Below are positions 422-18,090 of a stretch of DNA of 36,358 nt, in pieces (position 1 is the stretch's first letter; every line of letters begins with the position of its first letter). This stretch comes from Asticcacaulis benevestitus DSM 16100 = ATCC BAA-896 (GTDB lineage Bacteria > Pseudomonadota > Alphaproteobacteria > Caulobacterales > Caulobacteraceae): positions 1-36,358 of the forward strand of contig NZ_AQWM01000035.1 in assembly GCF_000376105.1 (NCBI RefSeq). The letters are read 5' to 3'. A program made the position numbers and the translations under genes. The notes under the pieces were generated by a model, which was not told the DNA's origin, ran no database searches, and was given only the letters and a program-made list of their open reading frames with translations.

Positions 422-1651
422 GTGAGATCGATGATTAATAGCCTGCCTAACAATAGAACGAACAGAGGAAGCAACATCGTCGCCGTTGGCGCTTATAACG
501 AGCGTTTGGTGCTGTCGATCCTTAGAAGCAAAGGTGCTCTGTCCAAGGTAGAATTAACGCAGGCGACCGGATTGTCCAAGCAAACGGTGACGGATGTCAT
601 CGGCAGGTTGGAATCAAATGGACTGTTGCTGAAGGGGGCTCCCGTGCGCGGTCGAATCGGTCAACCGCAAGTTCCCTTCCTGCTCAATCCGGATGGAGCC
701 TATTCTATCGGTTTCAAGATTGGTCGGAAAAGCTACGAGCTTGTGTTGATGGACTTCGCCGGCGCCATTTTAAAGTTGCACAGACAGCATATAGATTATC
801 CAACGCCTACAACCATGGTGACTTTTGTCGACGAAGCCTTGGAAACGCTGCGGCGCGAAATTTCGGTATCTATCATGGAGAAGGTTGTAGGTATGGGCGT
901 CGCCATGCCGAACGAGCTTTGGCGCTGGGGGCAGGAGTTCGACGCTCCAGATGACGAGATCGCCAGTTGGAAGAATTTCAACGTTCAATCTGAGTTGGAG
1001 AAATCCATAAGCCTGCCGGTTATGATTTCCAACGACGTGGCCGCGGCGTGCAATGGGGAATTGATTTTTGGGCAAGGAGAAAAAGCAAGTGACTTCCTCT
1101 ATGTCTACCTCGGTACCTTTATAGGGGGTGGCCTTGTCCTGAATGGCAAGATCGTTTCAGGCTCACGTCAAAATGCAGGAGCCATCGGGTCCATGCTGAT
1201 AGCGGATGGGCGGAACGGATCTGAAGCGCGGCAGCTCTTGTCTGTCACCTCTATCATTTCACTGGTTCACGACTTGACGGCCCACGATCGCGATACATCA
1301 CCCATTTGGGCGCCCGATGACGACTGGACGTCCATGGATGCACATGTGCTTCCATGGGTGGAGCATGTCGCAAGCCATCTCGCGTCAGCTTGCATCAATG
1401 CGGCGGCCATAACAGACGTTCCTCAAATCATCATCGATGGGTCGCTCCCCCCGCGTGTGCGGGCGCTCATCGTTGAAAGCGTCCGCGCTAAGACATCGAC
1501 ATTACCGACGACGGGTCTAAGTGACTTCGAATATGCTACAGGCACACTTGGTTATTCCGCGCGGGTGGTTGGCGCGGCCAGCCTGCCAATGCAAGCCAGA
1601 TTTGCGAACGATTGGGACACGCTTTTGAAAGCAGAACCCTTAACCGCCTGA
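422..1651 (+). CDS. ROK-family transcriptional regulator
   Basis: A 409-residue protein with an N-terminal winged helix (about residues 28-75: LSILRSKGALSKVELTQATG, then SKQTVTDVIGRLESNGLL) followed by an actin-like ROK domain. ROK landmarks are NDVAAAC at 204-210, where Asp205 matches the catalytic aspartate of ROK kinases, the glycine-rich GTFIGGG at 231-237, and NAGAIG at 251-256. The cysteine-rich zinc motif (CxCGxxGCxE) of ROK kinases and most NagC/Mlc repressors is absent; the sequence runs straight into ADGRNGSEARQLL. It is therefore probably a sugar-responsive regulator and not an active kinase. The start is GTG at 422; an ATG three codons later (431) is equally plausible and neither has a clear ribosome site. 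Its neighbours (broken fucose mutarotase, TonB receptor) suggest a sugar-uptake target, possibly the receptor at 3613. The effector is unknown. Confidence 0.87.
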   Translation: MRSMINSLPNNRTNRGSNIVAVGAYNERLVLSILRSKGALSKVELTQATGLSKQTVTDVIGRLESNGLLLKGAPVRGRIGQPQVPFLLNPDGAYSIGFKIGRKSYELVLMDFAGAILKLHRQHIDYPTPTTMVTFVDEALETLRREISVSIMEKVVGMGVAMPNELWRWGQEFDAPDDEIASWKNFNVQSELEKSISLPVMISNDVAAACNGELIFGQGEKASDFLYVYLGTFIGGGLVLNGKIVSGSRQNAGAIGSMLIADGRNGSEARQLLSVTSIISLVHDLTAHDRDTSPIWAPDDDWTSMDAHVLPWVEHVASHLASACINAAAITDVPQIIIDGSLPPRVRALIVESVRAKTSTLPTTGLSDFEYATGTLGYSARVVGAASLPMQARFANDWDTLLKAEPLTA

Positions 1652-3612: not shown

Positions 3613-6366
3613 ATGAAAAGGCACCTCATAGGCACAGTCAGTGTGCTTGCGGTTTCGACGCTGCTCGCAGCCACCGTCTTGCCAACTTTGGCGTATGGTC
3701 AGGAAACGTCCCAACCGGCCGCAGCCCCCGCGGAAGCCGACACAACCGAGGTCATCGTCACGGGCGTGACAATGAAAACGAAGAAGGTTCAATCGACCAT
3801 CTCGACCAGCACGATCACTGAAAAGGATATGCAGATCCTTGCGGCGAGCGGCACCGCTCAGCTGCTTGCGAACATTCCCGGCTTCTTACCCGAAGGCGGC
3901 ACGGCAGGCGAAACGCATAACAACGTCCAGGTTCGCGGCCTGCCGCAAGCCGGCGGTTACCGTTACGTCCCCAATCTGATCGACGGTTTGCCCGCCTACG
4001 AGGAACCCGAAGCGCCGTTCATGAACAACGACGTCTTCATCAAGCCGGATATTATGACAGTACGAGTCGAAGCGGTTAAAGGTGGCCCCGGCGGCATCCT
4101 CTATTCGAATGCCCTTGGCGCCGCTGTGAACTATATCACCCGCACCGGCACCGACGAATTCGAAGGCGGATACAAACTGGAACTTGGCAGCGACGACCGT
4201 GTGCGCAACGATCTGTTCGTGTCGGGTCCGCTGACCAAAAATCTGACATTCGCTGTTGGTGGCTTCTACCGCACGTCAAACGGCGTGCGTGACCCAGGTT
4301 TCACGGCGAATGCCGGAGGTCAAATCCGCGGCAACCTGAAATACACGAGTGACGACGGCTCGCTCACCGTATTGCTGATGGGGCAGCACATAGATGACCG
4401 CACGGCCTTTTATCAGAACGTGCCCTACGCGGTTCCCGCCACCGCGACTCCTGGGACGACCGCAGCGCCATTTACGGTCGACACGGATCTTATTCAAAAC
4501 CTGGGGCTGGATTTTGGAACGGGCACGCCCGTCTCCAATCAAACCAGCTTCTACCAGCTCTACGATGCTTCGGGTAAGCAATTCACCTTGGACATTAAGG
4601 ATGGCATACATCCCAAGTTTGACATCTTCACGGCCGAAGTCGAGAAGGTGTTCGGTAATGGCTGGAAATTCAACGCCAACATTCGTTCTACCGAAGGCTC
4701 GAACGGCTTCAGCGCGATGTTCCAGGATCCTCCGGTAGACACCTCCTACCTGATCAATGGTAATCCGCGAAACAGCGGAGACACAGGTTTCAATGGGCTG
4801 ATCCACAGCGCCCCATACGCGCCATGGTATCAGAACGCTGTGGCCGTGAAAGCCTACTATACCGATAGCGTGACCGGAACCGATCTTACGACCGCAAAAG
4901 CCGCGCCAGCGTACCTGGCCAATAACGTTCCGGTGCGAGGCTTCGTTGAAGCGACAACGCTTGTGTCCGATCTTCGCTTGGCGAAGAACCTTGACCTGGG
5001 CTGGTCTAGCCACGATTTGACGTTTGGCGTCTACAACAGCCATTACACCTATGACGTCTTCTCCGTTTTTGCCCGCGCATACTCGACGATCGAAGACAGC
5101 TCGCGCAAAGTCGATTTCTACGCCGTCGATGCAAATGGCCAGCAGGTTGGTCCCTCGATCACAAAGGACAGCATCGTCAGTCCGGCCCTGTTTGGTCTGG
5201 GTGCGACATCATCAGAGCAAACTAAGGCCCTCTATTTCCTCGATCACCTGACCTTGCTCGACGACCGTCTGAATATTGACGCCGGCGTGCGATGGCAAGA
5301 ACTTGTGATCAACCGCGTCACGACCAATTCCTTTAACCCCGGCAACACTTCGGCTAATGTCACCCCGAATAATGTGACGGTCGGCTCAACAAACGACTCG
5401 TTGGCCTATAAGAACGTGGCTATTCCGAACGGCGCCCCTCAATACGATCATCAAAAGTATCAAGGCACCGGATGGTCTCTGGGCGCTAACTACCGCCTGT
5501 CAGGCGGCAAATCTGGAGAGGGCGACACAGCGATTTATGCCACTATCGCAAAATCGTTCCGCCTTCCGGGATTTGAAGATTATATCTTCGGAGGACCGGC
5601 AACCAATGCTTCGACAGGTGCAGTTGCCCAGGGAAACCTAGTCGAACACATCATGCAGTATGAAGGCGGAATTCGGTTCGCCAATAACCAGTTCGCAATC
5701 TCGCTGTCCGGGTTTTATATCGACTTCGAAGCGAAAGAAATTCTCGGGTCAACACTCGTCGATCTGAGCGCATCCGTCGGTGGCACGCCCTGCTCCACCG
5801 TACCGACTCCGGCAAACTGTCCCGTCGTTCGTGACAGCTACCACAACAAGTTAGAAAACAAGGGCGTGGAGTTCGAATATTACTATCATCCGGATTACCT
5901 CCCCGGTCTCAAAATCCAGGGCAGCATTGTCTTGCAGGATCCGAAGATCTCCAATGATGTCGCCTACCGTGACGGCATTATCAACGGCAGCTACCACACC
6001 GTCGCCGTCGGCAGCTATGTGCCGCAACGCCAGCCCAAGACGGTCGTCAACTTCCGTCCATCGTACACCTTTACCAGCATACCTCTGACAATTTACGGTC
6101 AGGCGTACTATTACGGTGAGCGCTTTGCAGGAAACGATGACACCGCCATCTATCCGGCATACACGCAAGTCAACGCCGGGGCCCTGTGGAGCGTCACCGA
6201 TCGCCTCGATCTGCAACTGCATATCGACAATCTAAACGACGCATCGTCATTCACTGAGGGCGGTTCGATTAACGCGAACACGACGATGAGCGACGGTCGT
6301 TACGTGGGCGTGGCCCGTCCATTGATCGGCAGATCGTGGAAAGTCGTCACATCCTACCGCTTCTAA
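3613..6366 (+). CDS. TonB-dependent outer-membrane receptor
   Basis: A 917-residue receptor. The first about 29 residues form a signal peptide (MKRHLIGTVSVLAVSTLLAA, cleavage near LAYGQ). TTEVIVTG is a TonB-box-like segment before the plug. The plug carries LLANIPGF, VQVRGLPQ, the ligand-gate-like NLIDGLPAY and VEAVKGGPGGILYSNALGAA. The rest is a 22-strand barrel ending SWKVVTSYRF with a terminal aromatic, as needed for outer-membrane assembly. The plug resembles FecA/siderophore-type receptors more than the TIGR01782 type found at 14677-17772. It is alone on its strand, ends in a strong terminator, and faces the alpha-galactosidase gene. Location suggests oligosaccharide uptake, but a siderophore ligand is equally allowed by sequence. 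Start chosen on AGGAAA 5-10 bases upstream. Confidence 0.93.
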   Translation: MKRHLIGTVSVLAVSTLLAATVLPTLAYGQETSQPAAAPAEADTTEVIVTGVTMKTKKVQSTISTSTITEKDMQILAASGTAQLLANIPGFLPEGGTAGETHNNVQVRGLPQAGGYRYVPNLIDGLPAYEEPEAPFMNNDVFIKPDIMTVRVEAVKGGPGGILYSNALGAAVNYITRTGTDEFEGGYKLELGSDDRVRNDLFVSGPLTKNLTFAVGGFYRTSNGVRDPGFTANAGGQIRGNLKYTSDDGSLTVLLMGQHIDDRTAFYQNVPYAVPATATPGTTAAPFTVDTDLIQNLGLDFGTGTPVSNQTSFYQLYDASGKQFTLDIKDGIHPKFDIFTAEVEKVFGNGWKFNANIRSTEGSNGFSAMFQDPPVDTSYLINGNPRNSGDTGFNGLIHSAPYAPWYQNAVAVKAYYTDSVTGTDLTTAKAAPAYLANNVPVRGFVEATTLVSDLRLAKNLDLGWSSHDLTFGVYNSHYTYDVFSVFARAYSTIEDSSRKVDFYAVDANGQQVGPSITKDSIVSPALFGLGATSSEQTKALYFLDHLTLLDDRLNIDAGVRWQELVINRVTTNSFNPGNTSANVTPNNVTVGSTNDSLAYKNVAIPNGAPQYDHQKYQGTGWSLGANYRLSGGKSGEGDTAIYATIAKSFRLPGFEDYIFGGPATNASTGAVAQGNLVEHIMQYEGGIRFANNQFAISLSGFYIDFEAKEILGSTLVDLSASVGGTPCSTVPTPANCPVVRDSYHNKLENKGVEFEYYYHPDYLPGLKIQGSIVLQDPKISNDVAYRDGIINGSYHTVAVGSYVPQRQPKTVVNFRPSYTFTSIPLTIYGQAYYYGERFAGNDDTAIYPAYTQVNAGALWSVTDRLDLQLHIDNLNDASSFTEGGSINANTTMSDGRYVGVARPLIGRSWKVVTSYRF

Positions 6367-6845: not shown

Positions 6846-8066
6846 TCAAAGTGTCGGCGTTATCCGGATCATTGTGGCCCCGTGCGCGGGAACATCCGCA
6901 GTATACTTGCCTGTTACCGCTTTAATGACCTGCTTTGACCAAAGATCCGTGGTGGTTGCCTTCAACCCGGCTGGCCAGCCTAATGTTTCCCAGTTCACGG
7001 ACATTGACTTAGAACCTTCGGAGCGGTTTAAGAGCACCACGGCTTTCTCACCTCCCTTGAGAGCGCGTTCCCAGATTTCGAAGTCACCTTCATCGCTCAC
7101 CTTGCGCGCTTGTTGGCCAAGACTGTCCTGGTCCACTGCGATGACGTCCCTATTGATAAGAATCGATCGTGTATCCTCGGTCATCGTGGACAGATCATTT
7201 CCAGCGATCAATGGCGCGGCGAGCATAGCCCACATTGAAAAATGCGCCCGGTATTCAGTGGTAGTCATACCACCATTGCCGACCTCAAGCATATCTGGAT
7301 CGTTCCATTGGTTTGGTCCGGAGTCTTTCCAGAGCTCCTCTTGCTTGTCGAGTATCCACAAAAAGGAATGATTGTTTCCTTGATCCTGGCTCCAGGAATC
7401 CCGGATGTCGCCAGTGGTTCGCCACATATGCCCCACTTTCGGGGCCCACTCCCGTGGTTTGTTGTCGCCCCATTCGCAGATCGATAAGAGAATGTCCCGA
7501 CCTGAGGCCCGCAAGGCTTTCGCCATTATCGTATACGCGGCCTCCGCGTTACGCGTACCCGTATTGCACCAATCATATTTAAGGTAATCAACGCCCCAGG
7601 CAGCGTAGGTTCGAGCGTCTTGGAACTCGTGACCTGCGCTGCCAGGACGGCCACCGCAAGTCAGCGCGCCGGCGTCTGAGTAAAGGCCAAATTTCAAGCC
7701 TTTGGAATGGACGTAGTCGGCCAGCGCCTTAATACCGGCCGGAAACTTCTTCACGTCAGCCTGTATAGTTCCATCTGACGCTCGCTCAGTCTGCCAGCAA
7801 TCATCAATGATGACATACTTGTAGCCAGCATCCTTCATACCGTTTGCCGCCATAGAGTCAGCGACGGCGCGAACCTTGGCCTCGTCGACATTGCAGGCGA
7901 ACTTGTTCCACGAATTCCATCCCATGGGTGGCGTCGCCGCCAGGTTCGGCTTCGGGGCCGTTAACCCAAGGGAATCGTGCGCAAGCGCATGAGGCGTTAT
8001 GACTGCCCACGCCAAAGCTGCGAGAACGCCCGTGCGGGCTAGACTGGAACTGGCAGTTTTGTTCAT
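6846..8066 (-). CDS. GH27 alpha-galactosidase, exported
   Basis: A 406-residue glycoside hydrolase family 27 enzyme that releases terminal alpha-1,6- (or other alpha-) galactose. A signal peptide (about residues 1-30, ending PHALAHD) precedes the barrel, which opens with PPMGWNSWNKFACNV. YVIIDDCW (84-91) is the conserved substrate-binding strand. The nucleophile is Asp165 in YLKYDWCN, and the acid/base is Asp220 in RTTGDIRDSW, equivalent to Asp170 and Asp231 of human alpha-galactosidase A. WNDPDMLEVGN is also present. A short C-terminal beta domain ends MIRITPTL. The ribosome site is GAGGAAA before the ATG at 8066. It is separated from the upstream beta-galactosidase by a terminator, so it has its own promoter. 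Probably periplasmic. Together with the GH2 enzyme it would strip both galactose anomers from an imported oligosaccharide. Confidence 0.95.
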   Translation of the reverse strand: MNKTASSSLARTGVLAALAWAVITPHALAHDSLGLTAPKPNLAATPPMGWNSWNKFACNVDEAKVRAVADSMAANGMKDAGYKYVIIDDCWQTERASDGTIQADVKKFPAGIKALADYVHSKGLKFGLYSDAGALTCGGRPGSAGHEFQDARTYAAWGVDYLKYDWCNTGTRNAEAAYTIMAKALRASGRDILLSICEWGDNKPREWAPKVGHMWRTTGDIRDSWSQDQGNNHSFLWILDKQEELWKDSGPNQWNDPDMLEVGNGGMTTTEYRAHFSMWAMLAAPLIAGNDLSTMTEDTRSILINRDVIAVDQDSLGQQARKVSDEGDFEIWERALKGGEKAVVLLNRSEGSKSMSVNWETLGWPAGLKATTTDLWSKQVIKAVTGKYTADVPAHGATMIRITPTL

Positions 8067-8517
8067 TTGTTTCCTCGTTGAGCACAGTCGCGAACGACAT
8101 GAATTGTTTCAAGACCGGCCTGATAGGCCCAGGTCAATGTGGCCGCTTAGCTACTCTACGTGCTACCCGGTAGTCGTTCGACTAAACTCTTAGGCCGGCT
8201 GCTTGATAGTAGAGTTCCCCGCAATGCGAACGACTGGCAAACTCGGCCGGCCCTTACATGCTATGATATTATGTAAAATTAAGTCAAGATACCTTGCGTT
8301 GGATTGCTTATCATCGGGCATGTGCCTGCCCCTGATTTTACATGCAAAAGGCAAAAAAGGCCCTCCCGAAGGAGGGCCTAAGTGCTCCGGTGCTAGAGTC
8401 AGGGGAGCTCTCGCATTTCGGAGGAAAGAAAATCGGATGCAATTATAATATAATATTACCTACGAAATGACAAGCAAATTGTACCGTCATTTCCATTATT
8501 TCCTGTGTCCTTGATCG
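8067..8517 (-). promoter_or_regulatory. Alpha-galactosidase promoter region with CTACC-C-GGTAG dyad
   Basis: No gene is present. About 100 bases upstream of the alpha-galactosidase start lies the perfect dyad CTACC-C-GGTAG (8163-8173), a reasonable operator candidate for a LacI-type repressor, though no second copy was found. AT-rich tracts occur at 8262-8285 and 8441-8458. The terminator of the upstream operon sits at 8353-8379. Confidence 0.35.
8353..8379 (-). terminator. Terminator of the receptor-halogenase-beta-galactosidase operon
   Basis: AGGCCCTCC (8358-8366) and GGAGGGCCT (8371-8379) form a perfect 9-bp GC-rich stem closed by a CGAA loop. Read on the minus strand it is followed by six U residues (8358-8353). 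It lies about 140 bases past the beta-galactosidase stop and ends that operon before the alpha-galactosidase gene. Confidence 0.93.
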
Positions 8518-11406
8518 CTACTTAACGTCAAACTGCGCGGTCGCGGCGGACAATCCTTCCCCTGATGCCTTAAGGGTGGCACGACCCGGAACGCCCGTAG
8601 ACTGAACAATCACTTGGGCCCAGCCATTGAACACGCTGCGCTGCCATGGACCTGCGGGGTGATTGATCCGAACGACACCCCAACGGCTGCCGCCTACCGA
8701 GACGTCCGCCAAGGACGGTACGCCGCCTTTGGGTGTCGGAATGACATAACTCAAGCTGTTTTCAGATTTCAATCCGTCCACGTCCAGAACAACCTGACGA
8801 TTGCCGTCGACCACCGTTGTCTCCACAGGCAGGCCATTGACATATACCCTCTGCGAGGGTGCAAGATCAGCTACGAACAAGCTTACCTTGTCGCCAGGCT
8901 GTGTCGTCGGACGCGAAAACTGACCACGTAACACCAAACCAGCCGTCACTGGCGGCTGAGCTTCGGGCGGAAGCCACTGCAACGGATCGCGCCAGGAGGT
9001 GGTATCAACGGCCTCAGCGACTTCCGTCTGGTCACCAGTTCCGTCGACAGCGAGGCTTCGCCACTGTGAAACAGGCAGGAATTCATAACGGTCGACGGTT
9101 CTGTCCGCCTCGTGCGATCCAGGATCTCCGTTGCCTACACCGATAATTCGGATCGGCCCCGTAACGTCGAACTTGATCCTGTCCGATGCGGTCGGTACGA
9201 TCCCCCCCACCTTGTCTTCTACGTTGACCCAGACCACCGAGACGTCGGTTCCGTCAGCTGCGAGTTTATGTTTATCAGGCGTGAGAGCCACCTTTTCCGC
9301 TCTTCCGCTTGTGGACACTATGGCGTTGGCTACAAGCTTCCCATCGCTGTAAGCCCGTGCTTCCAGTTTCCCTGCCTGATAAGGCACATCCCACTGAAGG
9401 TGTGAATTTGCGACCATTGTCTTTCGGCCAAGGGATTTGCCGTTGAGAAAGAGCTCGACGGCCTGTGCATTGCTATATACGCGAACATCGATCGGCTGGC
9501 CTTCTTTCCCCTGCCAATTCCAATGCGGCAGAAGGTGGACCATGGGCGCAGTCGTCCATACGGACTTTAGGTAGTAAGCGCTATCTTTGTAGACGCCGGT
9601 CGTGTCCAGCATCCCGAATTGCGATGAAATAGCTGGCCAGCCAAAGGGGGTTGGCTCGCCACGATAGTCAAAACCTGTCCAAACAAACATTCCAGACATC
9701 CAGGGACGAGCGATGACATGGTTCCAGCCCTCCTCGATACTGAGGGAGTAGCTGGGCCGCCCTTGCCGGTCGTATGCGTTCAGATGCACCTTGGACCGAT
9801 CATCGAAGTAAATACCGCGCGTCGATAAAGTCGAACCCTCTTCAGTCATCGCCGCGGGCTTTTCCGGAAAACGTTGATGAAACGCATCCACATCGTGCTG
9901 GGCGCCATAGTTGAAGCCGATGACATCGGCCGAAACCGACACACCGCGACCGGAGCTGCTCGCCGCCACCGTCGTGCGGCGGCTTGGATCCAGGCGGTGG
10001 ACGATGTCTTGCATCTCGTCAGCTAAGTGGGTTCCAAGGGGCGTGCCCTCAAGCGCCCATTCTTCATTCCCTACCGACCACAGGATGACACTGGGGTGAT
10101 TGCGGTCACGAATAATCAAGCGTTCTAGTTGCCCGCGAATCTCCGGCGTTGTCCCCATCATGCGATGCTCGTCTAAGACCATCATGCCAATGCGATCGGC
10201 ATCGTCCAATAGTTCCGGCGCAGGTGGATTATGCGATGTGCGATAAGCGTTTGAGCCCATGCCTTTGAGTTGGTTAAGGCGCCAAGCCTGAAGCGCGTCA
10301 GGCATGGCCGTGCCGACGCCGGCGTGATCCTGATGGTTATTCGTGCCTTTGAGTCTCATCGGCTTTCCATTCAGGAAAAAGCCGCTATTGGCATCGAACG
10401 TTATCGTGCGAATACCGAAGGTCGTATCGTACGTGTCGACAGTCCGGCCCTCACTCACAATGGTTGTCTTTAAATGGTAGAGGTCCGGAGTGTCCGGAGA
10501 CCACAGATGAGGCGCGGTCACCTTGACCGAGCCATGAAAAGTTCCGTCCGACGCCGCCTTGACCGTCAAGCCTGTCATCTCAGCGTGTGCGACCCGTTGC
10601 CCATCTGGACCAACAACATCCTGAAGCAAACTAAATGTGCCATCGGTCTTCGCATCATTATCGACCGTTACATCGATGTCTAAGGTCGCCCCCCCCTTGT
10701 CGACCGTCGGCCTAACGAAAGTGCCCCACTTGCCGACATGTAGCGGATCGGTCTTCGAAAGCCAGACGTGACGGTAAATTCCGGCACCTTCGTAAAACCA
10801 TCCCTCCTCAACTGTCGCATCGACACGCACAGCAATTACGTTACGGCCGCCGTAGTTGAGATAGTCCGTGATGTCATAGCCGAAGCCCGAATACCCGCTC
10901 GGTTCAGTCCCGATATAGTGCCCGTTTACCCAGACTACGCTGTTGCGATAGACGCCATCGAAATCGATCGATATCCTGCGTCCACGGTCGCTCTCCGGCA
11001 CGTCGATGACTTTGCGGTACCATCCGACACTATTTTCCGGGAAGTCGTGCCCAATGGCTTTTGAGCCATGGTTACCATTGCCGCGCGCGTCAAACGGCAA
11101 TTCCACGGCCCAGTCGTGGGGCAGATCGACGCGCCGCCAAGCGGCGTCGTCGAAGTCGGAGTTCGCCGGCCCGTCGCCATATCCTGCCTTGGCGAAGAAA
11201 AAAGGCCTTAGACCGTACTTGAAATCCTTCGACGGATCGGTGGCGTTACCAAAGGCAAAGGCCCATCCTTTATCGATGTTAATGCGCTCGCGCTGGGAAG
11301 CTCTTGTCGAGGCCCCCGGCACGTCCGCAACAGCCAGTCGCGGCACAATATTTACTGCACCTATTGCTATCATTGATAATATCGTCAATCCAAGGTGCTT
11401 CGGCAC
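8518..11406 (-). CDS. GH2 beta-galactosidase, exported
   Basis: A 962-residue glycoside hydrolase family 2 enzyme from a GTG at 11406. The ribosome site AGGAG is six bases upstream and a signal peptide follows directly (TILSMIAIGAVNIVPRLAVA), so the longer frame reaching 11514 is rejected. Domain order: jelly-roll sugar-binding domain (about 40-215, DLPHDWAVE, GWYRKVIDVP, VVWVNG), immunoglobulin-like domain (220-335), TIM barrel (335-610) with RGTNNHQDH-like KGTNNHQDH, YRTSHNPP, acid/base Glu448 in SVGNEEW and the nucleophile at Glu522 or Glu523 in AMTEEGS, then a DUF4982-like domain (PHWNWQGKEGQPIDV, VELFLNGKSLGRK) and further beta domains. The barrel matches the bacterial beta-galactosidase group; beta-glucuronidase or another GH2 specificity is less likely. 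It is last in a four-gene operon, 85 bases after the halogenase. Confidence 0.9.
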   Translation of the reverse strand: MPKHLGLTILSMIAIGAVNIVPRLAVADVPGASTRASQRERINIDKGWAFAFGNATDPSKDFKYGLRPFFFAKAGYGDGPANSDFDDAAWRRVDLPHDWAVELPFDARGNGNHGSKAIGHDFPENSVGWYRKVIDVPESDRGRRISIDFDGVYRNSVVWVNGHYIGTEPSGYSGFGYDITDYLNYGGRNVIAVRVDATVEEGWFYEGAGIYRHVWLSKTDPLHVGKWGTFVRPTVDKGGATLDIDVTVDNDAKTDGTFSLLQDVVGPDGQRVAHAEMTGLTVKAASDGTFHGSVKVTAPHLWSPDTPDLYHLKTTIVSEGRTVDTYDTTFGIRTITFDANSGFFLNGKPMRLKGTNNHQDHAGVGTAMPDALQAWRLNQLKGMGSNAYRTSHNPPAPELLDDADRIGMMVLDEHRMMGTTPEIRGQLERLIIRDRNHPSVILWSVGNEEWALEGTPLGTHLADEMQDIVHRLDPSRRTTVAASSSGRGVSVSADVIGFNYGAQHDVDAFHQRFPEKPAAMTEEGSTLSTRGIYFDDRSKVHLNAYDRQGRPSYSLSIEEGWNHVIARPWMSGMFVWTGFDYRGEPTPFGWPAISSQFGMLDTTGVYKDSAYYLKSVWTTAPMVHLLPHWNWQGKEGQPIDVRVYSNAQAVELFLNGKSLGRKTMVANSHLQWDVPYQAGKLEARAYSDGKLVANAIVSTSGRAEKVALTPDKHKLAADGTDVSVVWVNVEDKVGGIVPTASDRIKFDVTGPIRIIGVGNGDPGSHEADRTVDRYEFLPVSQWRSLAVDGTGDQTEVAEAVDTTSWRDPLQWLPPEAQPPVTAGLVLRGQFSRPTTQPGDKVSLFVADLAPSQRVYVNGLPVETTVVDGNRQVVLDVDGLKSENSLSYVIPTPKGGVPSLADVSVGGSRWGVVRINHPAGPWQRSVFNGWAQVIVQSTGVPGRATLKASGEGLSAATAQFDVK

Positions 11407-11491
11407 ACTACTCTCCTGATTAAATTTAATTTTTGAGGCCAAGGCCAACCTACACCTTCGGCCGCGCATGCTACGAGGGAACCCGTCGCAA

Positions 11492-13054
11492 TTAGTCCAC
11501 CGTCGCTGCGCCACAATATTGCCTGATGAAGTCCCGGTGCGAAGGCATCGAGTCTACAACCTGCGCGGTGATCTGCCGAAGGCGTGCAACGTTTTTTGCT
11601 ATTTCGGGCAAAGGGATCTTATCGACGAGTGGATCGTAGCTTTTGGGTGTCACGCCTTGGCCGAGCATCACCGCTAACCAACTGTCGTCCGTGAACAGTT
11701 CGTCTTGATATCGGAAAATTCGTCCCGTTGAACAGAAGAGCGACATCCGTGCCTTGAGACGTTCCGGTATAACCATTGCACCGCGCTCCCGCCAAAATGA
11801 AGAATCAGAGCGCTCCGTGGCGCAGTAATGTAAAATAATAAAGTCTCTCACGGCCTCGTATTCCAGCAGCGTCGCCACATTGAATTCATCGATATTCGCC
11901 TGTGCAAACCTTTTGTCCGGAAAAAATAAAAGGAGCTTCGCAATGCCCGTCTGAATAAGATGAATGCCGGTCGATTCCAGCGGCTCAATGAAGCCTCCGG
12001 AAAGGCCGATGGCCACACAGTTCTTCACCCACATCGAACGACGGTGACCGGCCGTAAACGTGATCAAATGCGGGTCGTTGATCGGCTTGCCCTCGATCTG
12101 CGACAACAGCCTAGCGGTAGCTTCGTCTTGGCTTATGTGGTCACTCGAAAAAACATAACCATTCCCGACACGATGTTGTAGCGGGATACGCCACCGCCAG
12201 CCCGCAGAGTCAGCGGTCGCGCGGGTATAGGGCGGGAAATCTGAAAGGGGTTCGCTTCCAACTGCAACCGCACGATCACACGGCAGAAACTGGCTCCAGC
12301 TTTCAAAGCCGGCATTTAGGTGTCCCTCTATGAGCAGTCCCCGGAATCCTGAGCAGTCAACGAATAAATCTGCCGCGATTGTCCGGCCGTCGTCGAGGGT
12401 CACGGATGAGATAAAGCCATCATCCGACCTTAGGTCCGTACCGGCAATGCGACCTTCGATGCGGGTGACACCGCGCCCTTCTGCGTAACGGCGCAGATAT
12501 TTTGCATATAACGAGGCATCGAAATGGAAAGCGTACCGCAAAGAAGGACCGGGCGTGCTTGTCGCCCCGTTGGTCGTTAGAAACCGGCCTCGCGCCGCAG
12601 CTACTGAGCAGAGATTATAATCACTGATTGGCCCAGGGTCCGGGCACATTCCCCTGGCATAACCAGACTTCAACCGGAGCCATAACTGTAGAAATTTAAA
12701 CTCCTGCGTGTGCCGTCCGTGATCGCCAAAGGGATGGAAGTACCTCTCGCCCAGCCTGTTCCAATCGACAAACTCGATGCCGAGCTTGTAGGTGGCATGC
12801 GTATAACGGATGAAGTCGAACTCGTCCAAGCCAAGGATATTGTTGAAGGTCCGGATCGACGGTATCGTCGCCTCACCGACGCCGACAGTCCCAATTTCCT
12901 CCGACTCAATAAGCACGATCTTGACGTGCGCGGGCACCGTCTTTGCTAACGCGGCAGCGGTCATCCATCCGGCCGTGCCGCCGCCCACTATCACGACACG
13001 CTCAATCCGTGTGTTGTCACCGCCGCGATCAAAAGCTGCGTCCCCACTGACCAT
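11492..13054 (-). CDS. Flavin-dependent tryptophan-halogenase family protein with intact WxWxIP
   Basis: A 520-residue PrnA-type flavoprotein. IVGGGTAGWMTAAALA (22-37) is the FAD-binding GxGxxG. Lys90 in HATYKLGIEF corresponds to the catalytic Lys79 of PrnA, and Glu360 in GGFIEPLESTGI corresponds to PrnA Glu346 with the adjacent chloride-binding Thr-Gly. GWRWRIP (285-291) is the halogenase WxWxIP motif that blocks monooxygenation, so all known determinants of halogenation are present. The family uses reduced FAD from a partner reductase plus oxygen and halide; no flavin reductase gene is adjacent. The natural substrate of receptor-linked members is not established, and free tryptophan should not be assumed. 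Only two bases separate it from the upstream paralogue, indicating co-transcription. Confidence 0.9.
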   Translation of the reverse strand: MVSGDAAFDRGGDNTRIERVVIVGGGTAGWMTAAALAKTVPAHVKIVLIESEEIGTVGVGEATIPSIRTFNNILGLDEFDFIRYTHATYKLGIEFVDWNRLGERYFHPFGDHGRHTQEFKFLQLWLRLKSGYARGMCPDPGPISDYNLCSVAAARGRFLTTNGATSTPGPSLRYAFHFDASLYAKYLRRYAEGRGVTRIEGRIAGTDLRSDDGFISSVTLDDGRTIAADLFVDCSGFRGLLIEGHLNAGFESWSQFLPCDRAVAVGSEPLSDFPPYTRATADSAGWRWRIPLQHRVGNGYVFSSDHISQDEATARLLSQIEGKPINDPHLITFTAGHRRSMWVKNCVAIGLSGGFIEPLESTGIHLIQTGIAKLLLFFPDKRFAQANIDEFNVATLLEYEAVRDFIILHYCATERSDSSFWRERGAMVIPERLKARMSLFCSTGRIFRYQDELFTDDSWLAVMLGQGVTPKSYDPLVDKIPLPEIAKNVARLRQITAQVVDSMPSHRDFIRQYCGAATVD

Positions 13055-13056
13055 AC

Positions 13057-14604
13057 TTACGCCGCCCTTTTCGGGGTAAAGCCCTGGCGGCGAACCAGCT
13101 CGACGAGAGACCGATGTTCCGGCATGATCGTCAGTGCGTATTCGGCCTGTTTCTGAATTTCCTGGAATTCGGCACGGGCCTCGTCAAAATATCGGAGCGC
13201 CGCGATACGATCGCCCAAGATGGTCTTGTAACCCATGCCATATAAGACGTATTGCCAGTTGTGCTCCGTGAAGATGTCATGCTTGAGATCGACGTCGATG
13301 AACGACGGGGCCCTGTACTTCCACTGTTCCAGGCGATCTCGAAGACCGTCGCTGATCGATCCCGGATTAATATTATCAAGCCAGAAATCGGTATCGCGAC
13401 GGTTACTCACACAGTAATGCAGCTTGATAAAGTCAATGACGTGCGCATACCGCTCGCGCATTTGCGCGTTGAACTGCTCAGCGCCGCTGTCACACTGGTC
13501 AGACCATGGAAACAAAGCCGCCAGAATGACGCCTGCGATCTCCGCGAAGCCAATGCCAGTCGCTTCGAGCGGCTCGATGAAACCAGCAGACAGACCGACT
13601 GCGACGCAATTTTTTTTCCACTGGACCTCACGATAGCCCGCTTCAAATTTGAGTATCCGGCTCGGAAGATCGTCTGCGGCATGGCCGATATAGGTGCGCA
13701 GGCACGCTTCAGCGGCCTCGTCGCTTGTGTGGTCAGACGAATAGACATACCCCGTGCCACGGCGTTCTTGAAGCCCGATATCCCAAATCCAACCGTTCGT
13801 CTGCGCGACCGCTTTCGTATAGGAGGGTATAGGCGCTGCCGGGTCGTCGTACGGGACCTGGATGGCAACGGCGCGGTTGGTGAACAACTGCGACTTGAAT
13901 GATTTAAAGGGAACGCCCATCGCCTGGCCGATCAGTTGTGCACGAAACCCCGTGCAGTCGACATATAGGTCGGCCGTGAGGCGACCCGTCTTCCGACCCA
14001 CGAGACTTTCGATTTCTCCCGTTGGAGCCATTGTGACGTTGTCGATCGTATCGAAAACATGAGTAACACCTTGCTCGATAGCGCGCGACCTAAGTAATCC
14101 GGCAAATGCGACCGCGTCGAAATGATAGGCGTAATTAAGAGGGCCAGCGTATTCGGGATGCGTAATGAGTTTTGGCGCCCTGTAAGCATCGGCGACGCGC
14201 ATCTGCACGTTGCTCGCCGACGCCCAATCTTGCCCGCTGGCCGCTCCTGCCAGCCAGTAGGGAAGCAAATCCAGACCGCTACCCTGGTCCGCTATCTGAA
14301 AAGGATGAAAGTAGCGATCAGGTCCCGCCGAACCGGTTGACCGCCAATTTACAAATGCGATGCCCTGTTTGAAGGTCGCGTTGGCCGAGCGAATAAGATC
14401 CGCCTCGGCCAAACCTATCCGGCCGAGCGTCTTGCGGATACTGGGAAAGGTCCCTTCGCCCACTCCAATAATGCCAAAATCTTCAGATTCAACGACGGTA
14501 ATTCTCGCGCCGCCGGGGGTAGACGTGGCGAGCATGCGCGCGAGGTAAGCGGCCGTCATCCACCCTGCGGTGCCCCCGCCCACAATAATTATACTCTTAG
14601 CCAC
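13057..14604 (-). CDS. Flavin-dependent tryptophan-halogenase family protein with altered WIWDIG motif
   Basis: A 515-residue paralogue of the next gene downstream. It has FAD-binding IVGGGTAGWMTAAYLA (7-22), Lys79 in NATFKQGIAF and Glu347 in GFIEPLEATGI, at almost the same numbers as the PrnA catalytic pair Lys79/Glu346. The halogenase signature WxWxIP is WIWDIG (272-277), losing the proline. This variant may be incompetent for halogenation, may act as a monooxygenase, or may be a partner of the downstream copy; sequence alone does not decide. It is 72 bases downstream of the TonB receptor, with an intervening hairpin, and precedes the second copy by two bases. The ATG at 14604 starts directly with the nucleotide-binding strand, as usual for the family. 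Confidence 0.88.
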   Translation of the reverse strand: MAKSIIIVGGGTAGWMTAAYLARMLATSTPGGARITVVESEDFGIIGVGEGTFPSIRKTLGRIGLAEADLIRSANATFKQGIAFVNWRSTGSAGPDRYFHPFQIADQGSGLDLLPYWLAGAASGQDWASASNVQMRVADAYRAPKLITHPEYAGPLNYAYHFDAVAFAGLLRSRAIEQGVTHVFDTIDNVTMAPTGEIESLVGRKTGRLTADLYVDCTGFRAQLIGQAMGVPFKSFKSQLFTNRAVAIQVPYDDPAAPIPSYTKAVAQTNGWIWDIGLQERRGTGYVYSSDHTSDEAAEACLRTYIGHAADDLPSRILKFEAGYREVQWKKNCVAVGLSAGFIEPLEATGIGFAEIAGVILAALFPWSDQCDSGAEQFNAQMRERYAHVIDFIKLHYCVSNRRDTDFWLDNINPGSISDGLRDRLEQWKYRAPSFIDVDLKHDIFTEHNWQYVLYGMGYKTILGDRIAALRYFDEARAEFQEIQKQAEYALTIMPEHRSLVELVRRQGFTPKRAA

Positions 14605-14638
14605 TGCGCCCTCGTTTCAAGACGAATATCAGGATCAA

Positions 14639-14668
14639 GCCGGCCTCCGATGTGCACCGGAGGCCGGC
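14639..14668 (-). other. Intercistronic hairpin between receptor and halogenase genes
   Basis: GCCGGCCTCCG (14639-14649) and CGGAGGCCGGC (14658-14668) form a perfect 11-bp stem with an 8-base loop, immediately after the receptor stop codon. No U-run follows on the minus strand. It is better explained as a 3' stabilising structure or partial attenuator that makes receptor mRNA more abundant than the enzyme part than as a full terminator. Confidence 0.7.
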
Positions 14669-14676
14669 CGCCGTGG

Positions 14677-17600
14677 TTAGTAGCTCATCCGTAGACTGAT
14701 TTCGTAGCGGCGATCGCTCTTAAACCAGCTGCGGGTCGCGAATATCCCTTGAACGACTTCCATTTTCGTCTTTGGAACACCATCCAGCAGATTCGACGCC
14801 TGGAATGACACCTGGACACGGTCGTTCACCTTGTAACTGACGCTGCCATCAAGCTGTCCATACGCAGAGCCATAAATTGGCAGAGAGTAACAAACGACAT
14901 CAGCGCCGCGCTTACAGTAGACCGGATCATCTGCTGCGCCAGGGAGATTATACCAGCTATTGGTACCGTTGCCCGTCGTGGTGGCCAGATAATCACCACG
15001 CCAGCTGTATGCCAGCCGTGCATCCCAGGGGCCTTTGTCGTATAGAAGATTGATATTATAAGCTTCTTTCGAAAGGCCAGGCACGGTGATGTCCGGTATC
15101 GTGTTGCCATCCATACCGACTGCGCGCAATGACGGAGCCCTGCTATCAACATGAGTGTAGTTGGCTTCGATGCCCAAACCATCCAACGGTGACGGGAGTT
15201 GGTCGAAGAAAGCTCGCGCTCCCAGTTCAAAGCCCCTGATGTTCGTCTTTTCGTTCGAGTTGAAGTTTTGAACGACCTGCAAGGCGCCTTGTACATCTGA
15301 CGAAGAGGTGGAGCCGTACTGAGTATACTGGCCTGAAATGTTATATATAGACTGGTTGAAAACGATGAAATCCTTGATCGACTTGTTGAACAGGTCGAGG
15401 TGCGCCGTTAGGCTTGGCTTCGGATACCATTCAATCGACAGGTCTTCGTTCGTTGACACTTGCGGCTTCAACAGCTGCGAGATGCTTCCGCTGTAGCCGG
15501 AGAAAATGCCAGGCATCTGCGGACCAGAAGTGATCGCCGCATTATTGGCGTTCGTCGAGGTACTAATGCTCACTTTACCACCGACACGATCATCGCTGTA
15601 GCTTGGGGGACTTAGAGATTGGTTGACAGCGAAGCGGATAAGCCAGACGTCGTCCGGTTTGAAACTGAAGTTGACGGACGGAAGCGCACGGGTATACTTA
15701 ATATCGCCACCGACCGGCGTACTTACTGACGCATCACGCCTGTAGCTCAGCGGCATGTTGCCGTTGTTGGCAGCCATATAGGCTTGTGCGGCTGCCGGCG
15801 TCCCCCCGACCTGAGCGTAGGCGGTATTGGCGTCTGCCTGTGACAGGAAGAACGGCGCGGCCGTATTGACTGTGAAAGTGCCACGGCTATGTACGGTATC
15901 CTGAACCACGCGCAGGCCAAAATTACCGGTGAACGGAGCCCCGCCAAACCAGCTTGAGTCGCTGGCAAACCGCACTTCGCCGTAAACCGACGCAGTTTCA
16001 ATCCGGATATTGTTGGTCTGTGGTGCGCCCAGATCAGCAATCGTTGTTGCAGCGCCCTTCGGGAATTCCGCGCTGCCATAGGTGACGATATTATGCGTCA
16101 GGCACGAGCCACAGATTACCGTCGAAGGGGAGGAGAATATGTAGCTGCCCGGAACGGGAATATCCCCCTTGAAGAAGTTGGGGAAGCTGTAGACGGCCCA
16201 GTCTTCGGCCGGCGACTGCGCGACCGTCTTTTGAGCGCCGTTCCACGATTCGTTAATGGCTGACCACCAGGTTCCAGTGAAGGTGTCCGTCTCAGCGCGA
16301 TCTGCGTAACGCACACCCGCCTTAACGTCCCGGAAGAAGCCGTCGCCGAGCTCGTAAGTGGCGTCGAGATTCACCGCTGTCATATGCGCTTCATTCTTTT
16401 GCACATTCCAGACGATGGAGTTCGCGGCAGCGTGAGCGGAATCCACCATGGCCGTATTCGAGTTCGCAATGGTATTAACCGGCAAATCTCCAGTGAGGTC
16501 CATGTGCATTGTGGTGAGGTTGATACCTTCACCGATGCCCATGCCGTAGTCTTCAGCCTTATGCCAGGCGGCGACGTATTGCAGGGCGCCAGCCAGTTTC
16601 AGACGTTCACCGTTCCATGTGAATCCTTGGCTGAAATCCGCGGTCGTGTTCTCGCTGGGGGTAGAGTTGTTGGCGCTGCCAGGTGCCCAGGTGGTGCTGT
16701 TGCCAACTGAACTACCGTCGTGGGCCAGTGTGCCGGAGACGAACAATCCGTTCGAATCGAATTGTGCGTCGGCGAAGGTAACCGGCGCAGGCAAGCCACC
16801 GTTTTGTCCAAAGGAAACATCGGCAAAAACCCCGCCGCCGCCATTTACCGTCTTGTAGTTTGACGCAAAGACGGTCTGGTAAAGCGTCAATTGGTCGTTT
16901 GGCTTCCACTGGAAAGCCTCATAGAAACCCGTGCGCGTACGATCGAATGTGTCGTTGCCGTAGTCAAATCCGCCGGGCACATAGCGTTTTTGGCCCCCGA
17001 CCGTTTGTTGATAGTATGGTTCGCTGCGCATGAAACTGTCGGCGGATTGGAACTCAGCCCGCGCAACATCCACCAGCACACCCATTTCACCAATGGGTGT
17101 GTCGAAGCGACGGGTCATAAGAACCGAACCACTTGGCGAACCCTTTTTGACCAAGTCGCCATAGCTATACGCCGCACTGATACCGATCTCCGGCTTCCCG
17201 TAGTCGAACGGCATGCGGGTACGCAAATCGATTGAACCACCCAAGCCACCTTCGATGAGGCGCGCATTGCTACCCTTATAGACGTCGACGGCCGACATCA
17301 TTTCTGGGGTCACTTCACCCCAGCTTAGACCGCTTCCGCCGTTGGCCGAGAAGATTTCCCTGCCGTTCAGAAGCCCGGTGATGCCAGACAAGCCGCGGAT
17401 TTGCACGTCCGTGCCTTCCCAGGAGAACTGATCGGGGCTTCCGAGGCTGCCGAAGCGGACCATCGTCACGCCGGCCACGCGCGAGAGGACTTCCGTGACG
17501 GAGGTGTCCGGCAATTTGCCGGCTTCATCAGCAACGACTGAGTCGATCACTGTATCCGAATTCTTCTTGCGCTCGGTTGCATTTTGCAGCGCTTTTCGTC

Positions 17601-17772
17601 GCGCGGTTACGACCACAACGGTCTCGTCTGTCCCTGCCCCAGTCGCGCTAGCAGTGGCACCGGTTTGGTCTTGCGCAAAGCCAACTGCTGGCGCAACGGC
17701 AACCATACTGAGCACGATAAGCGATGTACTTGCCGCGAGCCGCGCAGCGCGCGTCCCTTTGTTTCTTTTCAT
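14677..17772 (-). CDS. TonB-dependent receptor, Xanthomonas/Caulobacter type
   Basis: A 1031-residue receptor starting at the ATG at 17772, where GGGAG lies 7 bases upstream and a signal peptide follows (MKRNKGTRAARLAAS, SLIVLSMVAVAPAVGFAQ). Thirty upstream in-frame codons are rejected. ETVVVVTA is the TonB box, followed by RKALQNATERKKNSDTVIDS and the plug landmarks GKLPDTSVTEVLSRVAGVTM, VQIRGLSG and LNGREIFSANGG, which are characteristic of the TIGR01782 family (carbohydrate-type receptors of Caulobacter and Xanthomonas). The barrel ends RRYEISLRMSY, with a C-terminal tyrosine. It is the first gene of a minus-strand operon with two halogenase-family genes and the GH2 enzyme, implying uptake of the substrate those enzymes act on, probably a galactosylated oligosaccharide or aryl glycoside. 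Confidence 0.93.
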   Translation of the reverse strand: MKRNKGTRAARLAASTSLIVLSMVAVAPAVGFAQDQTGATASATGAGTDETVVVVTARRKALQNATERKKNSDTVIDSVVADEAGKLPDTSVTEVLSRVAGVTMVRFGSLGSPDQFSWEGTDVQIRGLSGITGLLNGREIFSANGGSGLSWGEVTPEMMSAVDVYKGSNARLIEGGLGGSIDLRTRMPFDYGKPEIGISAAYSYGDLVKKGSPSGSVLMTRRFDTPIGEMGVLVDVARAEFQSADSFMRSEPYYQQTVGGQKRYVPGGFDYGNDTFDRTRTGFYEAFQWKPNDQLTLYQTVFASNYKTVNGGGGVFADVSFGQNGGLPAPVTFADAQFDSNGLFVSGTLAHDGSSVGNSTTWAPGSANNSTPSENTTADFSQGFTWNGERLKLAGALQYVAAWHKAEDYGMGIGEGINLTTMHMDLTGDLPVNTIANSNTAMVDSAHAAANSIVWNVQKNEAHMTAVNLDATYELGDGFFRDVKAGVRYADRAETDTFTGTWWSAINESWNGAQKTVAQSPAEDWAVYSFPNFFKGDIPVPGSYIFSSPSTVICGSCLTHNIVTYGSAEFPKGAATTIADLGAPQTNNIRIETASVYGEVRFASDSSWFGGAPFTGNFGLRVVQDTVHSRGTFTVNTAAPFFLSQADANTAYAQVGGTPAAAQAYMAANNGNMPLSYRRDASVSTPVGGDIKYTRALPSVNFSFKPDDVWLIRFAVNQSLSPPSYSDDRVGGKVSISTSTNANNAAITSGPQMPGIFSGYSGSISQLLKPQVSTNEDLSIEWYPKPSLTAHLDLFNKSIKDFIVFNQSIYNISGQYTQYGSTSSSDVQGALQVVQNFNSNEKTNIRGFELGARAFFDQLPSPLDGLGIEANYTHVDSRAPSLRAVGMDGNTIPDITVPGLSKEAYNINLLYDKGPWDARLAYSWRGDYLATTTGNGTNSWYNLPGAADDPVYCKRGADVVCYSLPIYGSAYGQLDGSVSYKVNDRVQVSFQASNLLDGVPKTKMEVVQGIFATRSWFKSDRRYEISLRMSY

Positions 17773-18090
17773 TGTTCGTCTCCCTGGCATTGCGCCGAAC
17801 CTGCGTACATTCGTTTGCGATGCAATTTGATCTAACTGGCCACCGCAGTGCGTGAAACGCACCGCCCGGCCATCTGCATATAATATAATACAATTAGCAG
17901 ATCAACTCATTCATATTATCATACTCTCATAATATGGAACAATTGTATTTTCGCCACATGCGAATAACAAACCTTTAAAGCGGAAAGGGAAATTGACTAT
18001 AATGGCACAAGCTGCAGCATTAAGGTTGTACCACTTGGGTCGCGCGTCGAGCGCCCACCTTAGAACTGTTGTCGAAAAAAGTGCCCCCCG
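17773..18090 (-). promoter_or_regulatory. Promoter region of the receptor-halogenase operon with AT-rich inverted repeat
   Basis: No gene is present. The 17875-17960 stretch is markedly AT-rich compared with its surroundings. It contains CATATTAT (17912-17919) and ATAATATG (17929-17936), a perfect 8-bp inverted repeat with a 9-base spacer, about 140-165 bases upstream of the receptor ATG. It is a reasonable operator or UP-like element. The ATATT/AATAT core recurs in the dyad before the GntR gene (21757-21774). No unambiguous -35/-10 was assigned. Confidence 0.4.

Follow-up and report, generated by a model that had tools for sequence, protein, structure and literature searches.

The window considered here, 36,358 nucleotides of contig NZ_AQWM01000035.1 of Asticcacaulis benevestitus, encodes two flavin-dependent halogenases (FDHs), FDHB and FDHA, behind a TonB-dependent receptor (TBDR). 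The coupling of FDHs to particular receptor clades, the retention of their catalytic residues, and the presence of companion genes are the principal observations; from these we infer, with corresponding caution, halogenation in vivo, a protein target, and its purpose. The window is tentatively read as a receptor-coupled halogenase cassette, in which the FDHs may act on the partner receptor, halogenating one of its aromatic side chains prior to export. The genes concerned form a minus-strand block (8518-17862), in the order TBDR, FDHB, FDHA, GH2 (glycoside hydrolase family 2) beta-galactosidase, with the following features.

14677..17862, minus strand: TBDR of the TIGR01782 type (P0004), 1061 residues from GTG as listed; TIGR01782, 511 bits (cut-off 310)
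14639..14668, minus strand: GC-rich hairpin without a T tract, in the TBDR/FDHB gap; inverted repeat, z -3.97 for the 70 bases that follow the receptor stop
13057..14604, minus strand: FDHB (P0002), flavin-dependent halogenase, 515 residues, GTG start; PF04820, 434 bits, E 1.1e-129
11492..13054, minus strand: FDHA (P0001), flavin-dependent halogenase, 520 residues; PF04820, 612 bits, E 9.3e-184
8518..11406, minus strand: GH2 beta-galactosidase, GalA type, 963 residues from a re-assigned start; NF041462 GalA, 1078 bits (cut-off 900)
8358..8379, minus strand: terminator-like hairpin with T tract, ending the block (hairpin scan)

The first-pass annotation had placed a halogenase pair, separated by two bases, between a TBDR and a GH2 enzyme, and the PF04820, TIGR01782, and GalA matches bear this out; FDHB is transcribed before FDHA, with positions 13055-13056 between them. 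FDHA and FDHB extend a known enzyme family by two members, both exceeding the PF04820 gathering cut-off (21 bits) over their whole length. The catalytic set is K90, E357, and WRWRIP in FDHA, and K79, E344, and WIWDIG in FDHB, the last residue of the latter motif departing from WxWxIP; K79 and E344 are invariant across a 23-sequence alignment. Among 160 FDHs compared, 145 retain GxGxxG, the catalytic Lys, and WxWx[IV]; of these, 144 have the Glu and one has Asp instead. Because the catalytic Lys, Glu, and WxWxI are retained, halogenation by FDHA and FDHB is likely, so far as sequence can indicate. The earlier label 'PrnA-type' holds at superfamily level; among solved structures, however, the nearest relatives are BrvH/Xcc4156 for FDHA, in sequence and structure, and 2pyx, 9lu2, and 9ltb for FDHB, which is nearer in sequence to 2pyx and 9lu2 (408 and 401 bits) than to 6frl (264 bits). 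Inspection by eye reveals no signal peptide in FDHA or FDHB. No flavin reductase gene lies beside the FDHs, both PF01613 genes of the genome being on other contigs.

The association of FDHs with receptors is recurrent within the source genome (4.99 Mb, 100 contigs), which has 21 PF04820 matches, i.e. 20 full-length FDHs, two of which are missing catalytic motifs, and one fragment with an internal stop. The full-length genes occupy 15 sites, 12 of them within 5 kb of a TBDR barrel (PF00593 match over cut-off), compared with 19% expected by coverage (binomial P 5e-7). At two of the remaining three sites a TBDR lies 7 kb off; the third, on contig C2, has none within 130 kb. A Pfam scan of the neighboring genes identified GH3/GH30, GH115/NAGLU, GH97, GH127, GH1, glucoamylase, GH43, and GH92, together with SapC once, and a glycosidase of our reference set is present within 6 kb at 9 of the 15 sites. 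Since the glycosidase varies and the receptor is mostly constant, the sugar enzyme is not the constant partner. One FDH is directly adjoined by a BD-FAE gene, of the feruloyl/acetyl esterase type (L030:8274-9131; loci are given by L-numbers). An aminotransferase gene lies near one FDH site, in L023, and a gene of acyltransferase type near another, in L027.

Two side observations concern the same genome. The site on contig C2 adjoins priA and an integrase-type gene, and the PF04820 fragment, of ~90 codons with an internal TAG (G000:C39:9716-9985, L021), lies some 4 kb from a TBDR, as an FDH remnant.

A search with FDHB of 41 genomes (25 Asticcacaulis, source included, and 16 from other families of the order) turned up relatives in four Asticcacaulis genomes besides the source, at 56-62% identity; gene calls in the fetched loci were made in this analysis, guided by homology where shadow ORFs (open reading frames) hid FDHs. 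In all eight FDHB loci, window included, FDHB belongs to the same gene run as a TBDR, and in seven of these it is directly behind the receptor; in L063, FDHA lies between the two. FDHA is present in 6/8 loci, L061 having FDHB alone and L067 running to the contig edge. A GH2 gene is near in only four (the window, L064, L065, and L066, the last two encoding proteins 30-31% identical to the window GH2); other glycosidases are GH42, GH39, and GH9 in L061, GH42 in L063, GH43 and GH5 in L062, and GH29 in L064 and L065. The galactosidase-centered reading of the first-pass annotation is thus rejected as a general explanation, the glycosidases varying among FDH loci.

Beyond the genus, 150 evenly drawn Pseudomonadota genomes were searched (PF04820 E<=1e-60; TIGR01782 E<=1e-90), with the best 10 PF04820 and best 5 TIGR01782 candidates scored per genome, so that counts are lower bounds. 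Among the matches listed, at least 15 of the 150 genomes have PF04820, at least 19 have TIGR01782, and at least 13 have both (hypergeometric P 1.4e-12, or 9.8e-12 without the source genome). For 14 other genomes, a TBDR was located within 6 kb in 29 of the 34 FDH regions listed; 17 of the same regions have SapC, Cupin_8, or DUF6445, and 11 have a reference-set glycosidase, these labels and the GH labels being assigned by BLAST against one reference each, from the source genome. A high- and a lower-scoring FDH as a pair behind a receptor also occurs outside Asticcacaulis (L145, L152, L153, L158, L159), one of the pair being of the WDIG type in L153 and L158. The receptor-linked halogenases to which the earlier annotation alluded are therefore real and recurrent, and the FDH-receptor adjacency proved neither unique nor random in the kind of genome survey that the earlier annotation had proposed as a test.

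The link is also predicted by receptor sequence. For 116 TIGR01782-like receptors, those with an FDH within 3.5 kb were scored as linked (72 linked, 44 unlinked); duplicates were merged and 14 receptors near stretch ends set aside. On the resulting tree the link state changes 10 times, whereas 1000 shuffles averaged 35 changes and never gave fewer than 28. This sample is biased, because many linked receptors were found via the P0001, P0002, or PF04820 searches and most unlinked ones via the receptor search; an 83-receptor version removes only the loci fetched with P0001/P0002. A set picked by receptor, comprising the own-genome stretches and the TIGR01782 survey (76 receptors, 32 linked and 44 unlinked; one in L139, with a differing gene start, was omitted), again gave 10 changes, versus a shuffled mean of 24.6 and minimum of 16 (1000 shuffles). 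Most of the linked receptors fall in three clades, the linked share being 23/25 in clade C1, 32/33 in clade C2, to which the window TBDR belongs, and 11/12 in clade C3. SapC, Cupin_8, or DUF6445 lies within 4 kb of 30/72 linked versus 1/44 unlinked receptors (P 7e-7), and of 15/32 versus 1/44 in the receptor-picked set. We take Cupin_8 and DUF6445 to be oxygenase-like.

Other features of these neighborhoods may be recorded. DUF6445 is beside 10/72 linked and 0/44 unlinked receptors (e.g. L025:14445-15371, L153, L155, L163). Of the 15 halogenase homologues that have lost the catalytic Lys, and often GxGxxG and WxWx as well, 14 lie near intact FDHs and a TBDR, in alpha- and gammaproteobacteria (L023:12795-14312, L025:11301-12887; also L075, L080, L086, L087, L094, L108, L112, L131, L135, L140, L149, L157); this recurrent pseudo-halogenase is perhaps a partner subunit. 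Fifty viral contigs (L200-L249) encode distant FDH relatives, with 26-35% identity to FDHB.

In the mechanism that we propose, and as enzyme families suggest, the TBDR would import a galactose-containing plant oligosaccharide, to be cleaved by the GH2 enzyme and a nearby GH27 enzyme, and FDHB and FDHA would be cytoplasmic two-component halogenases, with FADH2 supplied by a housekeeping flavin reductase encoded elsewhere and halide as co-substrate. A Lys-bound hypohalous species at K79/K90 would then halogenate an electron-rich aromatic ring. The halogenase target would go with the receptor, not with the sugar. The likeliest single candidate is the receptor's own polypeptide, in which modification of an aromatic residue ahead of Sec export would tune a ligand-binding or surface loop. 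Three points favor this candidate: the constancy of the receptor as partner, the open sites of characterized FDH relatives, and the near-invariant Trp residues of linked receptors. None of the readings amounts to proof of a halogenase target, and receptor modification is a guess offered with modest confidence.

With respect to the Trp residues, clade C2 has W533 in 33/33 and W540 in 31/33 receptors (window-receptor numbering), Trp is at the W540 column in 12/12 clade C3 receptors, and the same holds for all eight receptors adjoining BrvH- and Xcc4156-like genes. Near-invariant Trp columns number 1, 3, and 7 in linked clades C1, C2, and C3 (25, 33, and 12 receptors) versus 0, 1, 1, and 2 in the mostly unlinked clades U1-U4 (11, 10, 4, and 5 receptors; one linked, in U4), a weak contrast. 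Many columns differ between the 72 linked and 44 unlinked receptors; W533 and W540 are leads, not proof, because such differences largely reflect the kinship of linked receptors. Linked receptors are longer (mean 1039 versus 950 residues) and Cys-richer, differences confounded with clade. The window receptor has no solved relative at E 0.001.

Several findings weigh against receptor modification. The strongly linked clade C1 has Trp at the W540 column in 1/25 receptors; the Trp signal is clade-bound and exploratory, with an uncertain loop alignment; overall Trp content does not differ significantly between linked and unlinked receptors (P 0.08); and within the source genome (10 linked, 13 unlinked receptors) there is no decisive link-marking residue. 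We know of no halogenated outer-membrane protein, and there is none among the literature matches listed. Many TIGR01782-like receptors are without a nearby FDH, and 5 of the 34 FDH regions above are TBDR-free (L133, L142, L155, L164, L165), L142, L155, and L165 having a SapC or DUF6445 match. Another FDHB type, 48-51% identical to FDHB, was read in 14 Asticcacaulis regions: 10 contain no TBDR (L035:9107-10696 on G000:C2, L069-L074, L077-L079), and in the remaining four a TBDR lies 5-8 kb off. Finally, a receptor-imported target predicts the same linkage.

Halogenation of such an imported aromatic, or of an aromatic-decorated glycan (e.g. a feruloylated plant oligosaccharide), which is thereby detoxified, tagged, or used, is the main rival, and in our view a possible, if doubtful, one. 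As well as sharing the linkage evidence, it is consistent with plant cell-wall glycosidases in the neighborhood, with the BD-FAE gene at L030, and with the acceptance of free indole by BrvH (PMC5945002). It fits less well with the FDHs accompanying very different glycosidases, since a single aromatic would need to accompany many, and, besides the esterase, 0/30 scanned neighbor genes resemble aromatic catabolism. Moreover, a halogenated nutrient is usually harder to break down.

That the FDHs make a halogenated indole-like small molecule, a signal or weapon released when food arrives via the receptor, is unlikely. In favor of this reading are the in vitro bromination of indole by BrvH and activity of the Xcc enzymes on indoles (PMC5945002, PMC7336383), together with the aminotransferase and acyltransferase-type genes in L023 and L027; but the BrvH turnover of indole is very low (PMC5945002), the genes scanned next to the FDHs in the window and at the own-genome sites include no nonribosomal peptide synthetase, polyketide synthase, or indole-pathway gene, and 20 copies mostly tied to receptors would be hard to account for.

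Improbable to a greater degree is modification by the FDH pair of an aryl-galactoside aglycone released by the adjacent GH2 enzyme. The GH2 gene starts 85 bases after FDHA and is near in half of the homologous loci, but its product seems to be exported (signal-like N terminus, by eye), whereas the FDHs seem to be cytoplasmic, and homologous loci also bear GH42, GH43/GH5, or GH29. Because glycosidase families vary across FDH sites, the own-genome paralogues included (GH3/GH30, GH115/NAGLU, GH97, GH127, GH1, GH92), the aryl aglycone that the first-pass annotation had suggested is unlikely as a general substrate; its remark that halogenation has no evident role in galactoside breakdown stands. 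Least credible of all is a non-halogenating flavoprotein, i.e. a QhpG- or LodB-like monooxygenase or maturase, or the flavin chemistry on a sugar entertained earlier, given that the likeness of the window FDHs to the QhpG/LodB equivalog models of NCBIfam is weak (22-38 bits, far below the cut-offs of 240 and 400), that GxGxxG, the catalytic Lys, and WxWx[IV] are so widely kept, and that the close relative BrvH is a proven halogenase, the activity of which is abolished by K83A (PMC5945002).

Returning to receptor modification, a broader and more speculative proposal is that of a widespread system in which dedicated cytoplasmic halogenases, often with Cupin_8, DUF6445, and SapC, chemically alter aromatic residues of particular TonB receptors ahead of export, such that bromo- or chloro-tryptophan is displayed on the carbohydrate-receptor surface. 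This system would include BrvH and Xcc4156, and the recurrent catalytically dead halogenase found alongside active ones would serve it as a targeting subunit.

With respect to the layout of the window, some gene starts and signals merit comment. The GH2 ORF as listed (start 11514) overlaps FDHA, and the likely start is GTG 11406, preceded by AGGAGAG; from this start the N terminus is hydrophobic and, by eye, resembles a signal peptide, so the export of the GH2 enzyme claimed earlier is probable only. For the TBDR, translation may in fact begin at Met 25 or Met 31 of the listed protein. One terminator had been placed at the end of the block, and a hairpin with a T tract is indeed present there (8379-8358), in a terminator scan that is overall barely above chance (20 sites versus a shuffled mean of 16.5, sd 5.3); it is not the only strong hairpin, a second, without a T tract, being in the TBDR/FDHB gap (14668-14639). 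The latter suggests that receptor and halogenases may differ in expression level, with receptor message exceeding halogenase message. As an FDH-specific feature, a post-receptor hairpin was rejected: z < -2 is found after 29/37 receptors with an FDH downstream and after 72/102 others (overlapping loci not merged), and such hairpins are characteristic of these receptor genes at large. Further features of the locus are as follows.

6846..8066, minus strand: GH27 alpha-galactosidase, a separate unit beyond the terminator in the same locus; PF16499, 260 bits
18121..19233, minus strand: EamA-family transporter ORF, upstream of the TBDR; PF00892, 58.5 bits
18992..20005, minus strand: LacI-type regulator, candidate local regulator; PF00356, PF13377

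The true start of the EamA gene is probably later than listed, because the listed ORF overlaps the LacI gene. A comparison of promoters for a shared operator gave one AT-rich 12-mer only. Also in the window are a second TBDR (3613-6366, plus strand), which scores best with siderophore-receptor models, below cut-off; a ROK-family regulator (422-1651, plus strand), on the opposite strand in the same galactoside region; and a partial DDE transposase (PF01609; 1853-2296, minus strand), which points to an earlier insertion next to the locus.

PrnA, RebH, and PyrH, which are encoded in natural-product clusters, have the fold and catalytic residues in common with the window FDHs, at 31-36% identity. 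PyrH has a four-residue insertion in its C-terminal region, which FDHA is without, FDHA aligning there with BrvH without gaps. The solved relatives of FDHB, 2pyx (Shewanella frigidimarina), 9lu2 (Pseudoalteromonas L11-2), and 9ltb (Altererythrobacter S1-5), are designated 'tryptophan halogenases', and PyrH equals them in Z against FDHB.

By its TBDR, GH2, GH27, and LacI genes, the window holds a TonB-dependent carbohydrate utilization locus; the loci of this kind described previously likewise combine a receptor, glycosidases, and a local regulator (Blanvillain et al. 2007, PMC1790865), and a word search of the main text of that paper did not find halogenase or SapC. Nor does the word 'TonB' occur in the available main texts of PMC5945002 and PMC7336383 (figures not covered), and among the papers listed, judged largely from titles and the starts of abstracts, none concerned a halogenase-TBDR-sugar link or receptor-coupled cassettes as a class. 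A study of Colwellia/phage transcripts speculates that an uncharacterized FDH may modulate virus-host receptor interactions (PMC11337851), and among the insertions listed from a colony-morphology screen in a freshwater Sphingomonas, one hit RS06730, a 'tryptophan halogenase' gene (PMC11340318), which suggests a possible phenotype for such a gene.

The closest comparisons are with BrvH and Xcc4156. BrvH (PDB 6frl) brominates indole with low activity and does not accept Trp (Neubauer et al. 2018, PMC5945002); its native substrate and those of three Xanthomonas FDHs were stated to be unknown (PMC7336383). The open active site of BrvH resembles that of MibH, a peptide-acting enzyme (PMC5945002), and larger substrates or peptides have been suggested for BrvH/Xcc4156 (PMC5945002, PMC7336383). 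Of the family's 249 genomes, one contains a 100% match to the BrvH sequence (L258), and there the gene order is GH3-like, TBDR, BrvH, second FDH, LacI, and the order is the same in three relatives, 97, 81, and 72% identical (L259-L261); these are four of nine places listed. A second FDH gene, 42.7% identical, was described as 'upstream' of brvH on the metagenome contig (PMC5945002), whereas in L258 the second FDH lies downstream of BrvH in transcription. Unlike the window receptor, that of BrvH is outside clades C2/C3, with weak best BLAST matches; its neighbors are GH3-like and LacI, with no GH2, and the adjoining FDH is of the WRWRIP type, compared with WDIG for FDHB.

The own locus of Xcc4156 (PDB 6y1w) was not found in the genomes searched, the best match being 90%, and four of nine places listed for Xcc4156-like genes were examined. 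Genes encoding proteins 89-90% identical are in the order TBDR, SapC, Cupin_8, FDH in L262 and L263, and TBDR, Cupin_8, FDH in L264; a 71% relative is in the order TBDR, FDHB type, SapC, FDH in L265. The 89-90% loci thus have SapC and/or Cupin_8 with a single FDH, unlike the FDH pair of the window. With the gene of BrvH itself and those of three close Xcc4156 relatives linked to receptors, the search for substrates narrows from indoles at large to the receptor itself or its cargo. The receptor is thus a clue to the native target of a well-studied halogenase, with named loci and a mass shift to look for.

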